Assembly (NCBI GenBank): GCA_040757115.1
Contig: JBFLYA010000151.1
Coordinates: forward strand, 1-9,044
Reading direction: 5' to 3'
Source: a bacterium
GTDB taxonomy: Bacteria > UBA9089 > CG2-30-40-21 > SBAY01
Length of the DNA: 9,044 nucleotides
The notes beneath the pieces are model-generated. The model ran no database searches, was not told the DNA's origin, and saw nothing but the letters and a program-made list of their open reading frames with translations. The position numbers were made by a program, and so were the translations under genes. Each line of letters starts with the position of its first letter. Position 1 is the first letter of the stretch. This document shows positions 2,904 through 9,044 of this stretch, one piece after another.

Positions 2904-2904
2904 T
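2807..2904 (+). repeat. Dispersed intergenic repeat, copy 2 (98-bp core)
   Basis: It is identical to 163-260 except for four substitutions, all transitions. It contains the hairpin-forming 'AGGCTAAAGCCT' and ends with the CCCGAGT heptads. Weaker similarity extends left to about 2731 ('ctgcgaaatctgcgg', 'ttttcagaggaaacgctcatgccc'). Its last base is the first base of the kinase stop triplet (2904-2906 on the minus strand), so the element abuts that gene with no spacer. Confidence 0.88.
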
Positions 2905-4919
2905 TACTGATTACCTCTCTTTATGTCCTTGGCGCATCTAAAACCACTGCTATTTCGTGATTTATCTGGAGCAAGATAGTTTCGGATAAAACATTGGGTA
3001 GTAATTTGATTTCCCAAATAGGAGCCACCACGCCAAACACGATAATGACCAATATTTGGTCCTTTAGGATTTATTGAAGGACTATTTTCATAATAATTAC
3101 TATCATACCAATCTGTAACCCATTCACAGACATTTCCAGCCATATCTTCACAACCATAAGGGCTCTTTCCCTCTGGAAAACTTCCCACTGGTGTTACTCT
3201 TTGCATGCTGATATTACATTTATTTCGGTCAAATATATCTCCCCAGGGGTATTTTCTTCCCCCTGTGCCTCTTGCCGCCTTTTCCCATTCTGCCTCAGTA
3301 GGTAGGCGTTTTCCTGCCCATCTGGCATATCTATTTGCTCCATCCCAGGTAACCTCTACGACTGGATATTTTTCATACCCAGCCTTTACCTTATACAGAC
3401 CGTTTGGTTTTTCTATCTTACAATATTCGGACTCAAGATTAATATAACCGTCGTGCTTGCCCATCGCATTTAAAAACCTAACATACTGTTCATTAGTTAC
3501 TTCATACTTATCCATATAGAAACTATCTAAATAAACTTTGCGTTGTGGATGTGTATTGTCTCCATTGTGCATTCCCATAATAAATTCACCGCCCTCAACT
3601 AATACCATTTCTGAAGGAATTGGAAAATCTGCTTTTTGAGACAGAGATTTAACTCTTTCTAACTGGGTAATTAATTCTTTTTTTTCGTTTTCAGCATTCT
3701 CTATTTTCTGATTTGCTATCTGCATTTGAGCCTCTAAGTTTTGTTTCACTCCTTCTAAATTCTGTAATTTAGTTTGCAATGTATATAATTTCTTTGCATA
3801 ATCTCTTTGTGTGATTTGAAGTGTATTTTGATTTTTATTATATTTTTGGATAAAGTAACCAGCTATACTCACCGCGATAATGATACCAATTATGCTTAAA
3901 ATTGTAATCTTTTTCAATTTCAAAAAGGTTTCCTTATTAATGGTAATTTCATCTCTTTTTTGCTCAAAATCAATCTTTGGGGCACGATGCATTTCTAAAT
4001 CTGAAAGTAACTCTTTTACCTCCTGATATCTCTTCTCAGGGGCTTTTGCTAAACATTTTCTTGTAATATTATCTAACCATACCGGAATTTGAGGATTTAA
4101 CTCTTTAAGTGGAATAGGGGTTTCAAATATGTGTTTATAGGCAATGGCAATTAATGTATCAGAGCCAAAAGGAGGTTTGCCAGTAAGAAGTTCATACAGG
4201 ACAATGCCTACTGAATAAATATCAGTTCGAGCATCAATTTTTTCTCCTTTAACTTGCTCTGGAGACATATACTCTGGAGAACCAACTATCAGAAGGTCAG
4301 GACTCGTTAAACCATTAAGCTCGGCAGATTTAGCTATACTAAAATCTCCTATCTTTACTATGCCGTCTTTTCTAATAAGGATATTCTGTGGTTTTATATC
4401 ACGATTTATAATCTGGTTTTCATGGACTACTTGCAGTGCCTTTAATACCTGCTTTATAACTCCAACCGTCTCAATCGGAGATAAAATGTTTCTTTCTTGA
4501 AGTATACTCTTCAGGTCCTGACCATCAACATACTCCATAGAAATATACCATCTATTATCAAACTGACCAATATCATATATCCTGATTATATTATCATGGC
4601 TTAGTCTGCGAGTAATCTTTGTTTCTTGTTTGAATCGTTCGACAATTTCTTGATTCATAGATAGACCCGGGGCAAGCACTTTCAACGCCACTATCTCATC
4701 TAATATAAAATCTTTAGCCTTATAAACAATTCCTACTCCTCCTCTACCAATTGAACTAATAATTTCATATCTTTTGTCTATCTGATAATGTGGTTCAAAT
4801 ACAATATCAATCGCAGTGATAGGTAAATTTTTACTGATAGTAATTTCTTCGTTACATTCTGGACATAATAAGGAATTGGTGTTATCCAGGAAGTTGATTT
4901 GACATTTATTACAAATCAT
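2904..4919 (-). CDS. Transmembrane Ser/Thr protein kinase with zinc ribbon and FGE/SUMF1-like sensor domain
   Basis: This 671-residue protein has five parts. A CxxC...CxxC zinc ribbon (C3, C6, C19, C22) is followed by a Hanks-type kinase domain (about 51-312): glycine loop 'GRGGVGIVYKAKD' (58-70), catalytic K80, E99, loop 'INRDIKPQN' (171-179), metal-binding 'GDFSIAK' (191-197) and 'MSPEQ' (218-222). Then come one membrane helix (about 338-357), a coiled coil (about 365-428) and an FGE-sulfatase/SUMF1-like domain (about 436-665; 'MVLVEGGEFIMGM', 'RLPTEAEWEKAARG', 'DMAGNVCEW', 'RVWRGGSY', 'GFRCA'). The kinase should face the cytoplasm and the FGE-like domain the periplasm. The catalytic loop has NRD instead of HRD and DFS instead of DFG, but K80, D174, N179 and D192 remain, so activity is plausible. 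The FGE-like domain has Gly (635) where the first catalytic Cys is expected, so it is more likely a ligand-binding module than a formylglycine-generating enzyme. A ribosome binding site 'gaaagg' lies eight bases before the ATG. Confidence 0.9.
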   Translation of the reverse strand: MICNKCQINFLDNTNSLLCPECNEEITISKNLPITAIDIVFEPHYQIDKRYEIISSIGRGGVGIVYKAKDFILDEIVALKVLAPGLSMNQEIVERFKQETKITRRLSHDNIIRIYDIGQFDNRWYISMEYVDGQDLKSILQERNILSPIETVGVIKQVLKALQVVHENQIINRDIKPQNILIRKDGIVKIGDFSIAKSAELNGLTSPDLLIVGSPEYMSPEQVKGEKIDARTDIYSVGIVLYELLTGKPPFGSDTLIAIAYKHIFETPIPLKELNPQIPVWLDNITRKCLAKAPEKRYQEVKELLSDLEMHRAPKIDFEQKRDEITINKETFLKLKKITILSIIGIIIAVSIAGYFIQKYNKNQNTLQITQRDYAKKLYTLQTKLQNLEGVKQNLEAQMQIANQKIENAENEKKELITQLERVKSLSQKADFPIPSEMVLVEGGEFIMGMHNGDNTHPQRKVYLDSFYMDKYEVTNEQYVRFLNAMGKHDGYINLESEYCKIEKPNGLYKVKAGYEKYPVVEVTWDGANRYARWAGKRLPTEAEWEKAARGTGGRKYPWGDIFDRNKCNISMQRVTPVGSFPEGKSPYGCEDMAGNVCEWVTDWYDSNYYENSPSINPKGPNIGHYRVWRGGSYLGNQITTQCFIRNYLAPDKSRNSSGFRCAKDIKRGNQ

Positions 4920-4965: not shown

Positions 4966-4981
4966 TGCAAATTTTATGCTA
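4966..4981 (-). promoter_or_regulatory. Sigma-54-like promoter for the kinase gene
   Basis: On the minus strand it reads TAGCATAAAATTTGCA. Aligned to TGGCACG-N4-TTGCA it matches 9 of 12 defined positions, with exact -24/-12 spacing and an intact TTGCA. The departures are G to A at the first G of the -24 GG, plus CG to TA. Transcription would start near 4956, giving a leader of about 37 nt. The same 17-bp core recurs at 6659-6675. An alternative reading is an operator, since AGCA-N7-TGCT-like symmetry is present. Confidence 0.5.
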
Positions 4982-5013
4982 ACTCTAATTTCTGTCTTGC
5001 TATTATTAGAGTT
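4981..5013. repeat. 9-bp inverted repeat next to the kinase promoter
   Basis: AACTCTAAT (4981-4989) and ATTAGAGTT (5005-5013) are perfect reverse complements separated by 15 bp. The inner edge overlaps the first base of the -24-like element. The octamer ATTAGAGT also occurs at 6575-6582 upstream of the other sigma-54-like promoter. It is a possible operator. Confidence 0.55.
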
Positions 5014-5047
5014 AAAGAAATTTACCACAAAAAATATCCTGCCTTTA

Positions 5048-5066
5048 TTGTTCAATTATTAAACAC
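5048..5066 (-). promoter_or_regulatory. Enhancer-like 19-bp site upstream of the kinase gene
   Basis: On the minus strand it reads GTGTTTAATAATTGAACAA and matches the perfect palindrome at 6505-6523 at 15 of 19 positions. It is centred about 100 bp upstream of the predicted kinase transcription start, the usual range for sigma-54 activator binding sites. The activator encoded next door is the obvious candidate to bind it. Confidence 0.5.
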
Positions 5067-5141
5067 TTCCAAAAGGTTAAAGGTATAACTTCTTGAGATA
5101 CAAATAGTTACAACTTTTTTAAAAAAAATTTATTTTTTTGC

Positions 5142-5170
5142 TTGACAAAATAATTAAAATTAGATATAAT
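5142..5170 (+). promoter_or_regulatory. Consensus sigma-70 promoter (TTGACA-N17-TATAAT)
   Basis: Both hexamers are perfect and the spacer is the optimal 17 bp. A run of A and T tracts immediately upstream (about 5113-5140) could act as an UP element, as at stable-RNA promoters. Transcription would start near 5177, over 360 bp before the activator start codon, so it makes either a long leader or a separate RNA. Confidence 0.85.
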
Positions 5171-5367
5171 TTTTTTGCTTTGATTGGGATGGGAAAAATT
5201 TGAATATAAAGATAATAAGGGACCGAAGTGAGATACTATACCCTTTTAATATATACCACACATATAAATAAGAGAGAAAGAGTAACTTAAGTCAGTCTTG
5301 ATGTTTATGCAAGGGAAAAATGTATTATTCTTTAACTCAATTAGTCTCTTAGATGTGTGGTATTTTT

Positions 5368-5386
5368 GTGTCTAATAGTTACCAAA
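5368..5386 (+). promoter_or_regulatory. Weak partial match to the enhancer-like palindrome
   Basis: The left half GTGTCTAATA resembles GTGTCCAATA of the 6505-6523 site, but the right half does not (12 of 19 overall). It could serve autoregulation of the activator or be chance in AT-rich DNA. Confidence 0.2.
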
Positions 5387-5476
5387 AAATAAGGGCAAAA
5401 GTAACAGAAGAAAAAAACTAAGAATTACCCCCTCTTAGCTATTGGTTCTTCTTCACATTACCCTTGCCCTATTTTT
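5384..5476 (+). terminator. Long imperfect hairpin ending in a T-run (terminator or structured RNA end)
   Basis: Nested stems pair AGGGCAA (5392-5398) with TTGCCCT (5464-5470), GTAA with TTAC, GAAGAA (5407-5412) with TTCTTC (5449-5454), and CTAAGA (5418-5423) with TCTTAG (5433-5438) around a 9-nt loop. An A-run on the left pairs with a T-run on the right (5472-5476), giving a bidirectional terminator look. It lies between the strong promoter and the activator gene and could reduce activator transcription. The stem is unusually long and interrupted for a terminator. Confidence 0.5.
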
Positions 5477-5538
5477 ATATTATACACTATTTTTAAAAAA
5501 AAGTCAAGATTTAATTTTAAAAAAATTAAGGTAAGATT

Positions 5539-6504
5539 ATGAGTAACTTTAATGGAATAGTTGGTAAAAGTGCCAAAATGCAACAGGTTTATCATCTTAT
5601 AGATATATCTGCAAACACCAATGTTCCAGTTCATATCTATGGAGAAACTGGCACAGGTAAAGAATTAGTTGCTCGAGCTATACATAATCGAAGTAAAAGA
5701 AGAAATTATATCCCGATAAACTGTGCCGCCATACCTCATGATTTAGCCGAAAGTGAGCTATTTGGTCATGAAAAAGGGGCTTTTACCTCAGCCATTAAAG
5801 ACCGATTAGGTAAGCTGGAATTAGCTCAAGGGGGAACTATACTTTTTGATGAAATTGGAGAGATGAGTATCCCTTTGCAGGCTAAATTATTGCGTGTTGT
5901 GGAAGATAAAATATTTTATCGAGTAGGTGGAACTAAACCTATTAATGTTGATATTAGAATAATTTCAGCCACGAATAAATCACTATTAACTCAGGTTAAA
6001 AATGGACAGTTTAGAGATGACCTTTATTATCGGTTATCCGTGTTTCAGATAAATTTACCACCTTTACGAGAGCGTAAAGAAGATATTCCTGAATTAGTTA
6101 AGCACTTTATAAAAATGGCTAATGAGGAAACTAATAAAGATGTTAGGGATATTGATAGTCTGGCATTAACTAAATTAATGGAATATGATTGGCCAGGAAA
6201 TATCCGTCAACTTAGCAATTGTATTCTCAAGGCAGTTATTATTGCCAGTCGTTCTCATATTACCATTGATGATATTCACTTACCAATATTCATACCTACT
6301 AATGGAAAATTGAAGCTACAACAGGTGGATGAGGCGGCTTATGATAAAAAAGGTCAAGATTCATCTTCGTTAGTTGATTTAGAAATAACGGCAATTAAAC
6401 GGATGCTTGAGGAAAAGAATGGAAATAAAAAAGAAACCGCTAAAGCATTAGGAATAGGTCGTTCATCTCTTTATTGGAAGATACGGAGATATAATTTAGC
6501 GTAA
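5539..6504 (+). CDS. Sigma-54 activator (bacterial enhancer-binding protein), PspF-like, without sensory domain
   Basis: This 321-residue protein is only an AAA+ domain plus a DNA-binding tail, the PspF layout (PspF is about 325 residues). Visible motifs are Walker A 'GETGTGKE' (35-42), the sigma-54 contact loop 'GAFTSA' (80-85), Walker B 'ILFDEIGE' (101-108), sensor I 'SATN' (143-146), arginine-finger region 'FRDDLYYRL' (158-166), sensor II 'WPGNIRQL' (218-225) and a Fis-type helix-turn-helix (about 279-320, 'KKETAKALGIGRSSLYWKIR'). It should hydrolyse ATP as a hexamer to remodel sigma-54 polymerase from upstream sites. The fifth residue of the usual GAFTGA is Ser. With no receiver or GAF/PAS domain, activity must be set by expression, a partner protein or phosphorylation. 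The start is supported by AAGG at 5528-5531, seven bases upstream. It lies between two sigma-54-like promoters, which are its likely targets. No pspA-like gene is present, so the pspF symbol is withheld. Confidence 0.93.
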   Translation: MSNFNGIVGKSAKMQQVYHLIDISANTNVPVHIYGETGTGKELVARAIHNRSKRRNYIPINCAAIPHDLAESELFGHEKGAFTSAIKDRLGKLELAQGGTILFDEIGEMSIPLQAKLLRVVEDKIFYRVGGTKPINVDIRIISATNKSLLTQVKNGQFRDDLYYRLSVFQINLPPLRERKEDIPELVKHFIKMANEETNKDVRDIDSLALTKLMEYDWPGNIRQLSNCILKAVIIASRSHITIDDIHLPIFIPTNGKLKLQQVDEAAYDKKGQDSSSLVDLEITAIKRMLEEKNGNKKETAKALGIGRSSLYWKIRRYNLA

Positions 6505-6523
6505 GTGTCCAATAATTGGACAC
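6505..6523. promoter_or_regulatory. Perfect 19-bp palindrome, probable activator binding site 1
   Basis: GTGTCCAAT-A-ATTGGACAC is a perfect inverted repeat of 9-bp arms around one base, starting right after the activator stop codon. Lack of a following T-run and the existence of two related copies favour a protein-binding site over a terminator. It is centred about 170 bp upstream of the predicted start at ~6687, in the enhancer range. The Fis-type helix-turn-helix of the adjacent activator is the likely reader. Confidence 0.65.
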
Positions 6524-6564
6524 AAGACCTCTTTTATAGAAATTACAAGCAAATGTTTAAATTA

Positions 6565-6583
6565 GTGTCCAAAAATTAGAGTC
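6565..6583 (+). promoter_or_regulatory. Imperfect copy of the palindrome, probable activator binding site 2
   Basis: The left arm GTGTCCAA is intact and the right arm degraded; 15 of 19 positions match the site at 6505-6523. Its centre is 60 bp from that of site 1 and about 113 bp upstream of the predicted start. Paired strong and weak sites are common for sigma-54 activators. Confidence 0.5.
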
Positions 6584-6658
6584 TTTGGAAGTAATTTTGG
6601 AGAGGAAATACTTTATATAACTTTAAGTAAAGTAATAAGTAAGATAAGATTAAAAGAG

Positions 6659-6676
6659 GTTAGCATAAAATTTGCT
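6659..6676 (+). promoter_or_regulatory. Sigma-54-like promoter for the envelope genes or small RNA
   Basis: GTTAGCATAAAATTTGC (6659-6675) is identical over 17 bp to the minus-strand sequence upstream of the kinase gene. The TAGCA/TTGC blocks have -24/-12 spacing. It is flanked by a 7-bp inverted repeat (AAAAGAG 6652-6658, CTCTTTT 6675-6681). Transcription would start near 6687, just before the hairpin. Confidence 0.5.
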
Positions 6677-6697
6677 CTTTTACGAGTAGGGGTAAGT

Positions 6698-6756
6698 AAC
6701 TGGGTATAAGCAGTTGAACAACGGAGAATGATACCTGTATATGCTTATACCCGGTT
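6698..6756 (+). other. 15-bp stem-loop in the leader
   Basis: AACTGGGTATAAGCA (6698-6712) pairs with TGCTTATACCCGGTT (6742-6756) throughout, with one T-G wobble. The wobble suggests selection for RNA rather than DNA symmetry. The outer flanks (gtaagt and atttac) may extend the stem past a bulge. Confidence 0.7.
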
Positions 6757-6824
6757 AACAAATATTTACGATAGGGGATTGATATAACTAAGGGAAAATA
6801 GTGATTATTTTTACACACTATAAA

Positions 6825-6864
6825 AGCCAATAGTGGGTCAAGGACCTATTATTGGCTTTTTTTT
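6825..6864 (+). terminator. Strong intrinsic terminator just upstream of the Ig-fold gene
   Basis: A 15-bp stem, AGCCAATAGTGGGTC (6825-6839) with 6843-6857, closes a 3-nt loop and is followed directly by eight T (6857-6864). Two of the pairs are G-U. CACTA (6816-6820) can pair with TAGTG (6831-6835), which would disrupt the stem and could act as a weak antiterminator. Confidence 0.85.
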
Positions 6865-6883
6865 GTTTAGAGGAGGTCAATTT

Positions 6884-7750
6884 ATGAAAAAAATCATTAA
6901 TATTGGTTGGTTAATTACTCTTATTCTAATAGTTGGTGGATACCTTTCATCAGTAGAGGCTATTTCTATTGTGCCAAGTATTGTAAAATTATCATTGACA
7001 CAAGGAGAGAGTAAAAGCAATGTTTTTGAGATTAATAATGGCGGAGATGAAGAAGTTTATGTTGAGATATTCACAAAGGATTGGGTATTAGAAAACAATA
7101 GCCGGAAATTTGCACCTGCAGGCACACATTCCCAGTCATTAAGTAAGTGGATAACCTTTGAAGAAGAGAGTTTTACCCTTGCCCCAAAACAAAAACGCTC
7201 ACTCCGATATGCAATAGATGTTCCACAAAACGCTGAAGGTGGATATTGGGGATTAGTTTGTTTCAATTCCCGACCATTAAAAAAGGGTGGCGGGGTTAGA
7301 GTTGCTACACAATTGGTATCTTTTGTTGGGGCTGAAATTACTGGAACTTTGAAAAAAAAGATTGAAATAACTGAAATATCAGCAGAAAATATTAAAGATA
7401 GAGGATTCAGATTTCAAGCAAAATTGAAAAATCTCGGTAATTCACCTCTATTTCAACCATCTCCAGTGGGAAAGTTTAAAATTAAGGATAAAAACGATAA
7501 TGTCATTGCCGAAGGAAATTTAGAAGGAAGAATGATTTTACCCAATGAAATCGGTGATTATACCTCCGAATATTTTAAATTAAACCCACATGACGAAAAT
7601 AAGTATTTAACAACAATTATTTTTGACTATGGCGATACAAAACTTATTGGTAAAAAAGTTATACTGCCCACAAACACATTTTATAATTGGCAGGTATTAG
7701 AGAAACCAGCAACTAAAGAGGCAACAGAAGCCAGTGGCAAAAAACAATAA
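6884..7750 (+). CDS. Secreted two-domain Ig-fold protein, pilus-chaperone-like
   Basis: The start is ATG 6884, seven bases after AGGAGG (6871-6876). The in-frame GTG at 6833 lies inside the terminator and is rejected. The 288-residue product has a clear signal peptide (KK, hydrophobic 7-20, cleavage after 'VEA', residue 26). The first beta-sandwich (about 27-150) resembles fimbrial chaperones and WxLIP/DUF916-type proteins: 'VKLSLTQGES', 'NNGGDEEVYVEIFTKDW', 'SLSKWITFEEESFTLAPKQKRSLRYAI' and 'PQNAEGGYWGLV', the last two being the hallmark order in this group. A second beta domain covers about 158-262, followed by a short hydrophilic tail. It should act in the periplasm, binding or presenting surface proteins. 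It overlaps the next gene, so the two are probably co-translated. It lacks an adjacent recognisable pilin or classical usher, so a chaperone-usher pilus cannot be claimed. Confidence 0.8.
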   Translation: MKKIINIGWLITLILIVGGYLSSVEAISIVPSIVKLSLTQGESKSNVFEINNGGDEEVYVEIFTKDWVLENNSRKFAPAGTHSQSLSKWITFEEESFTLAPKQKRSLRYAIDVPQNAEGGYWGLVCFNSRPLKKGGGVRVATQLVSFVGAEITGTLKKKIEITEISAENIKDRGFRFQAKLKNLGNSPLFQPSPVGKFKIKDKNDNVIAEGNLEGRMILPNEIGDYTSEYFKLNPHDENKYLTTIIFDYGDTKLIGKKVILPTNTFYNWQVLEKPATKEATEASGKKQ

Positions 7751-9044
7751 TTTGTCTTTTTCAGGAGTTTTAATTATACTTTGGGCTTTATATCCTGAAT
7801 CTTCTTTAGCCATATCTGGTTCTGGAAATTACACATTCGAACTTGAGGAAAATCTATCAATGGCAACTTATAATCTTAATCTTAATGGAAGACAAAAAGA
7901 TTTATATTTTAACTCATCAACCAATTTTCAGATTAATGTCCAGGATAAAAAACCTGATTTCACAAATACTCAACTAACTATTTATAACAAACTGTATAAT
8001 TTAGCCTTATTTAATCTATCTTATGGAATAAGCCGATTGGTCGAGCCCAATTTGAATTTATTTGGGGTTAAATTTGAAATGAAAAAAAAAGCACAGACAT
8101 CAACTTTTTTTGCCGGAAAATCTGCTGGCTCTCAAGTTATGGGGATAAAAACAAACACAGAATATGGCTCAAATACATCTTATGGCTTATTTTTATGGGC
8201 TAAAGAAAATACTCAAATACTCGGGTTAGATTTCTCAAAACCTATCCATAAATTCTCAAACCTACAAGGTGAATGTTATTTAAATAACGAAAACCAGTGG
8301 GGATTACTTTTAAAAAATTTAATAAACTATAAAAAAACTACCTTACGAACTGAATATTCAATAATAAACAATGTGCCTAACTTTAACTTGTTTGCCAACT
8401 ACAAAACTAAAAGATTAAATACAGAAATTGAATATTCCAGAACCAATCAGGCTAATTTATGGAAATTAAAAGGTGATTTTAAAACGGACAAATTTAATGC
8501 CGGTGGATATATTTCCAATAAAAAGGATTTATCAGAAAGCTTATTATATAATGGCTATGTTGGGTATAATTTAAAAGTTTTAAAAAAGATTACTCCTTCT
8601 ATTTTGTATTCACATTCTTACAGTCATCTCTCACAACTATCAACTGAAAATATCTATGATAGTCTTTTTTTAAAAACAACTTACCTTGAATCTAAATATC
8701 CGTTATCTATATCCACCAACATAGGAATTGAGATGGAAAAACAAGAAAGCCCGACTTCCATTAAAAGTGAAGTAACCTTTGAAAAAGGTCTGCAATTACG
8801 ATATGAATATTATGGATTTAGACCGTGGGCAAATTTTAATGTAACAACAGGTGAGGATAAAATCAACACATCTTACCAAAAACAATCAAATTCTATATCT
8901 TATGGAATTAGTAAAAATATTAGTCGAAAATTAAACATATCCTATAATTGTTATCAATCAGAAGATAAATCACAATCTTCATCCGGAGAAAAAATTAATA
9001 ATCGAATAAACAAATTCCTTACCCTTGATTATAAATTTCCAAAA
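7734..9044 (+). CDS. Probable outer-membrane beta-barrel protein (3' end beyond window)
   Basis: An open frame runs from after an in-frame TAG at 7698-7700 to the window edge with no stop, giving at least 437 codons. The only reasonable starts are GTG 7734, overlapping the upstream gene by 17 bases, and TTG 7752. GTG is preferred because it adds a Lys before the hydrophobic segment of a signal peptide ('LSFSGVLIILWAL...SSLA', cleavage near residue 26). AAGAGG lies about 12 bases upstream, a weak binding site. The rest has no cytoplasmic fold motif. It is a series of short alternating polar/aromatic segments rich in Tyr, Asn, Ser and Lys ('YSLFLW'-like strands, 'SISYGISKNISRKLNISYN'), as in outer-membrane barrels. 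It is not recognisably an FimD-type usher or a TonB receptor. Coupling to the Ig-fold gene suggests a joint role in envelope export or assembly. Confidence 0.68.
   Translation, partial: MAKNNNLSFSGVLIILWALYPESSLAISGSGNYTFELEENLSMATYNLNLNGRQKDLYFNSSTNFQINVQDKKPDFTNTQLTIYNKLYNLALFNLSYGISRLVEPNLNLFGVKFEMKKKAQTSTFFAGKSAGSQVMGIKTNTEYGSNTSYGLFLWAKENTQILGLDFSKPIHKFSNLQGECYLNNENQWGLLLKNLINYKKTTLRTEYSIINNVPNFNLFANYKTKRLNTEIEYSRTNQANLWKLKGDFKTDKFNAGGYISNKKDLSESLLYNGYVGYNLKVLKKITPSILYSHSYSHLSQLSTENIYDSLFLKTTYLESKYPLSISTNIGIEMEKQESPTSIKSEVTFEKGLQLRYEYYGFRPWANFNVTTGEDKINTSYQKQSNSISYGISKNISRKLNISYNCYQSEDKSQSSSGEKINNRINKFLTLDYKFPK

Follow-up and report, generated by a model that had tools for sequence, protein, structure and literature searches.

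Identical putative sigma-54 promoters on both sides of an enhancer-binding protein gene, and a -25 base change in a lineage with an altered RpoN box

Organization of the locus

The window analysed here is one whole contig (C151, 9,044 bp) of a 4.3-Mb bacterial genome (G000). Between two gene units it holds a gene whose product combines an AAA+ sigma-54 interaction domain with a HTH, as expected of an enhancer-binding protein, and has no N-terminal sensor domain (Table 1); because of this absence, control of the activator probably lies in its own amount. In alignments, its loop reads GAFTSA instead of GAFTGA in orthologs and paralogs across the order, and serine at that position has been classed as putatively functional (PMC3162934). 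The recognition-helix region GIGRSSLYWK is likewise kept across the order, as is the dyad described below.

The kinase gene on one side has orthologs in a second genome of the same genus (G001, 97%) and in the sister genus (G002, 67%). In the envelope unit on the other side, orthologs of the first product give a weak PF06030 match, and its structure model, of poor quality (pLDDT 60), matches the WxL-interacting protein 9i25 at 3.2e-6; the resemblance to this family may serve as a lead only. The second product is truncated by the contig edge, and its complete ortholog in G001 (709 aa) carries an SdrD_B domain. Outside genes, a GC-rich stretch (GCGGGCGGGGATGCTGAAGTCGA...CCCGAGTCCCGA) occurs in two copies, at 140-260 and 2790-2905, which probably represent a dispersed repeat, and tandem TTACCAATTACCAG repeats are found at 2010-2090.

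Two regions may act at the RNA level. Ahead of the activator gene, a sigma-70-type promoter (TTGACA-N17-TATAAT, 5142-5170) opens a conserved RNA-coding region (5142-5480) with a hairpin at 5253-5363 followed by a U-run and a second hairpin at 5386-5474. Counterparts are present in G001, G002 and a further relative, G003, and also ahead of activator paralogs in G005-G007, and the closing stem covaries, with C-G exchanged for G-C. A role as an attenuator or as a small RNA is possible for these hairpins and terminators. The envelope-unit leader is nearly identical in G001 and different in G003; upstream of its terminator, CACTAT could pair with ATAGTG on either side, an alternative pairing that suggests an attenuator. 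An Rfam search with both regions returned nothing meaningful.

Table 1. Features of the window that bear on the proposed regulation.
Feature	Position	Strand	Remarks
Ser/Thr protein kinase with C-terminal FGE-sulfatase domain, target unit 1	2904-4919	-	PF00069, PF03781
Putative sigma-54 promoter, kinase gene	4967-4983	-	GTTAGCATAAAATTTGC(A); -25 A, -24 G, -13/-12 GC; predicted start ~4955
Kinase-side dyad, candidate activator site	5048-5066		GTGTTTAATAATTGAACAA on minus strand; 77 bp from -24 G
Sigma-54 activator (enhancer-binding protein)	5539-6504	+	AAA+ PF00158, 2.4e-65; Fis-type HTH PF02954, 1.3e-9
Upstream dyad 1, candidate activator site	6505-6523		GTGTCCAATAATTGGACAC, perfect palindrome; directly 3' of activator stop codon; 148 bp from -24 G
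Upstream dyad 2, candidate activator site	6565-6583		GTGTCCAAAAATTAGAGTC; 14.0 bits; 88 bp from -24 G
Putative sigma-54 promoter, envelope unit	6659-6675	+	GTTAGCATAAAATTTGC(T); predicted start ~6687
Envelope-unit leader	6687-6883	+	long hairpin 6698-6756; intrinsic terminator 6822-6864 before start codon; fold -63.8 kcal/mol
Secreted Ig-like protein, first gene of target unit 2	6884-7750	+	resembles WxL-interacting proteins
Probable surface or outer-membrane protein, second gene of target unit 2	7734-9044	+	ends at contig edge

Twin promoter sites and their dyads

The preliminary description of this DNA had reported an identical 17-mer on both sides of the activator gene, each copy intergenic and oriented toward its own gene, and had considered such a repeat unlikely to arise by chance. 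All of this holds on re-examination. The sequence GTTAGCATAAAATTTGC is exact at both places, with the kinase gene downstream of one copy and the envelope gene downstream of the other, and at up to 3 mismatches the window contains 3 matches where 0.11 are expected, a number reached in none of 200 shuffles. The third match, at 8829-8845, has 3 mismatches, lies within a gene and was dismissed. When all 70 TTNGCAN6TTGC matches in the genome were read, the 16-base core TTAGCATAAAATTTGC was found only at the two window sites and thus never inside genes, where its random occurrence had been named as an argument against promoters. The -24/-12 frame was also correctly described: -25 is A in place of the first G of the -24 GG, -24 is G, and both copies retain an unaltered TTGC in the -12 element, with GC at -13/-12 at a fixed spacing from the -24 element. 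The starts predicted here differ from those given before by at most one base. The rpoN gene, whose absence would have spoken against this reading, is present in a single copy (PF04552, 3.8e-53), and further sites with A at -25 were found at promoter positions, which had been named as support.

The same promoters can be followed in the relatives. In G001 the kinase-side 17-mer is identical and the envelope side reads TTAGCATAAAATTTGCT, and both promoters of this genus carry A at -25 (AG instead of GG at -25/-24 in G000 and G001). In G002, CTGGCATAAAATTTGCT is found upstream of the kinase ortholog and CTGGCATAAGATTTGCT upstream of the envelope gene, and G003 has TTGGTATAAGATTTGCT in the same place upstream of its envelope gene; G002 thus has GG at both promoters and G003 at the envelope promoter. 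Because the sister genus carries GG at the same promoters, the A is most simply explained as derived, in sigma-54 promoters that are ordinary in other respects, and the sites as canonical promoters that have drifted. On the kinase side of G003 the dyad is present and no -24/-12 site was seen. The kinase gene of G001 lies on a different contig, and the two contig ends resemble the sides of an insertion between promoter and start codon.

Upstream of the promoters lie dyads that are candidate sites for the activator. In an alignment of the window with G001 and G003, the palindrome GTGTCCAATAATTGGACAC and the second dyad 60 bp further on are conserved, the envelope side of the orthologous G003 locus likewise having two. 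A matrix derived from the dyads of the searched genomes, with the kinase-side dyad left out, finds exactly three sites in the window (about 0.1 expected), namely those listed in Table 1. Their distances of 77, 88 and 148 bp correspond to the 80-150 bp usual for upstream activator sites (PMC6755734). G001 and G002 retain promoter and dyad together, as does G003 for its envelope unit. A dyad search detected the motif in 8 of 9 genomes. At the order-level dyad loci, each of the 10 canonical [CT]TGGCA[CT]-N5-TTGC sites had a dyad no more than 264 bp away, and the other ~19.6 kb of these loci contained no such site.

Pattern searches, from which all genome-wide counts are taken, gave 12 matches to TTRGCAY-N5-TTGCW in the genome and 1 in a reversed control, with -25 being A in 6 and G in 6. 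Seven of the 12 are intergenic and upstream of a gene (on C3, C27 and C253, two on C4 and the two on C151), and four of these seven have A. A third promoter with A, TTAGCATAAGATTTGCT, is identical on contig C27 of G000, C133 of G001 and C16 of G002. It lies about 160 bp downstream of a dyad of its own and precedes a secreted-protein gene. In G000 (L007:1501-2453) this third regulon member encodes a secreted 227-aa protein without a Pfam or NCBIfam match, and a dyad-linked promoter of G005 (L098) precedes the gene of a similar secreted protein. At C3, C4, C253 and C306 of G001, the other promoter loci that were checked, no such dyad is present, and the dyad-linked promoters therefore look like one regulon.

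The -25 base and the RpoN box

The RpoN box, ARRTVAKYRE in its canonical form, is ASRTVAKYRE in both G000 and G001; its sequence in G002 and G003 is AVRTVAKYRE. The altered position is Arg in all 24 other RpoN boxes read. By alignment, the changed residue is R455 of E. coli sigma-54, so the canonical Arg-Arg at 455/456 has become Ser-Arg in this genus, with Val at 455 in the sister genus. According to a cryo-EM study, 5'-CTGGC-3' around -25/-24 is read by R455 and R456, which the authors describe as invariant (PMC9770992), and according to a review, replacement of either by Ala abolishes -24 binding (PMC7175178). The joint occurrence of the R455 loss and A at -25 suggests that sigma factor and promoter covary, within one lineage only. 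A natural change of sigma-54 specificity may have occurred here: loss of R455 in one family would have relaxed -25 from G to purine, and the promoters of the regulon would then have drifted to AG in parallel. We put this forward tentatively, at slightly below an even chance.

Alternatively, the two sites could be real sigma-54 promoters whose A at -25 reflects plain drift in an AT-rich genome, unrelated to the RpoN box, and this explanation may as easily be right as wrong. One-base departures from GG are known from characterised Myxococcus sigma-54 promoters (PMC7910581), so that GG is usual and not strictly defining; G is retained elsewhere among the promoters of this genome and, for the most part, in the Val-bearing G002 and G003, which also lack the arginine. 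Against unrelated drift, -25 is A at all three dyad-linked promoters of the genus and G at those of R455-bearing relatives, where the search pattern itself required G. In the family, 8 of 16 matches with A at -25 occupy promoter positions, whereas of 14 such matches examined in other members of the phylum only 1 falls outside open frames (Fisher p 0.017, with orthologs that are not independent). Of the 10 matches in the genome to TTTGCAY/TTCGCAY-N5-TTGC, that is, with T or C at -25, 9 lie within open frames and none is upstream of a convincing gene.

Two further observations were considered in this connection. The GAFTSA loop was rejected as the cause of the A, since relatives bearing GAFTSA have GG promoters and R455. 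An apparent counterexample in R455 organisms, the -25A match TAGCATTATATTTGCA that G005 and G006 have ahead of activator paralogs, was set aside as it lies within the 3' arm of a conserved RNA hairpin.

Proposed regulon and its meaning

On sequence grounds, the two 17-mers are very probably sigma-54 promoters by which the intervening gene switches on its neighbours. We consider it highly probable that a single enhancer-binding protein encoded at the locus activates an envelope regulon through sigma-54 promoters with relaxed specificity at -25, the A being tolerated in this lineage, likely via loss of R455. Bound to GTGTCCAATAATTGGACAC-type dyads that lie 77-148 bp ahead of the promoters, the activator would use ATP to convert the sigma-54 closed complex to an open one at both. 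This would switch on the kinase gene and, on the opposite side, the unit of secreted Ig-like and surface proteins, and thereby couple the kinase to the surface proteins; the gene on C27 would be a third target. The sigma factor would accept A in place of the first G of the -24 GG, the likely reason being that R455 is now Ser. The preliminary description had predicted control of both flanking units through a non-canonical promoter class. The control is supported by the checks proposed there and more strongly by the upstream dyads and the conservation of promoter and dyad in the relatives, whereas the separate class is contradicted by the GG of the sister genus. Several features count against the proposed regulon as a whole: the GAFTSA departure, the missing kinase-side -24/-12 site in G003, the apparent insertion in G001, the lower-scoring kinase-side dyad, and the leader terminator, which would reduce the transcription that reaches the envelope gene.

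The activator could also control the envelope unit only, with the kinase promoter answering to a different one of the at least five other activator-like proteins encoded in the genome. The kinase-side dyad is indeed weaker (10.2 of 34.9 bits with the matrix built without it), but this same matrix found it, it is kept in G001, G002 and G003 and thus conserved in four genomes, and no such dyad accompanies the other promoter loci checked, which makes this division of control unlikely. Finally, the 17-mers might be a small repeat, or be bound by a different protein, and only resemble sigma-54 promoters, as the match spans the spacer plus both elements and lacks the first consensus G, but the GG and exact -24/-12 spacing of the orthologous sites in G002 and G003, the lack of further copies in the genome and the dyads at typical distances leave this very improbable.

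Compared with known systems, the promoters share with the YTGGCAC-N5-TTGCW consensus the -24 G, the CA, the spacing, the -12 GC, a single rpoN and dyads 77-162 bp upstream; they differ in having A for the first G of GG at four promoter-positioned sites, and in a spacer that is almost fixed as ATAARAT in the regulon. The RpoN box retains nine of its ten residues. The activator resembles PspF-type enhancer-binding proteins, which consist of AAA+ and HTH only, in lacking an N-terminal regulatory domain, in its Fis-type HTH and in its predicted control of neighbouring genes, and differs in its GAFTSA loop and in the RNA-coding region, with its own sigma-70-type promoter, that precedes it. In Myxococcus, too, a sigma-54 promoter can lack one G of GG, but the departures there concern single promoters, whereas here they recur across a regulon together with a change in the RpoN box (PMC7910581). 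Envelope targets are common for sigma-54 (PMC3162934), and the design of the regulon is usual for this sigma factor; the departure lies in the paired changes of promoter and RpoN box.

Few known pairs of sigma factor and promoter are as rigid as sigma-54 with its -24/-12 promoter. A lineage without one of the two arginines, whose promoters lack one of the bases that these read, would represent a natural experiment on which base is read by which residue, and in such genomes scans demanding GG would miss part of the regulon.
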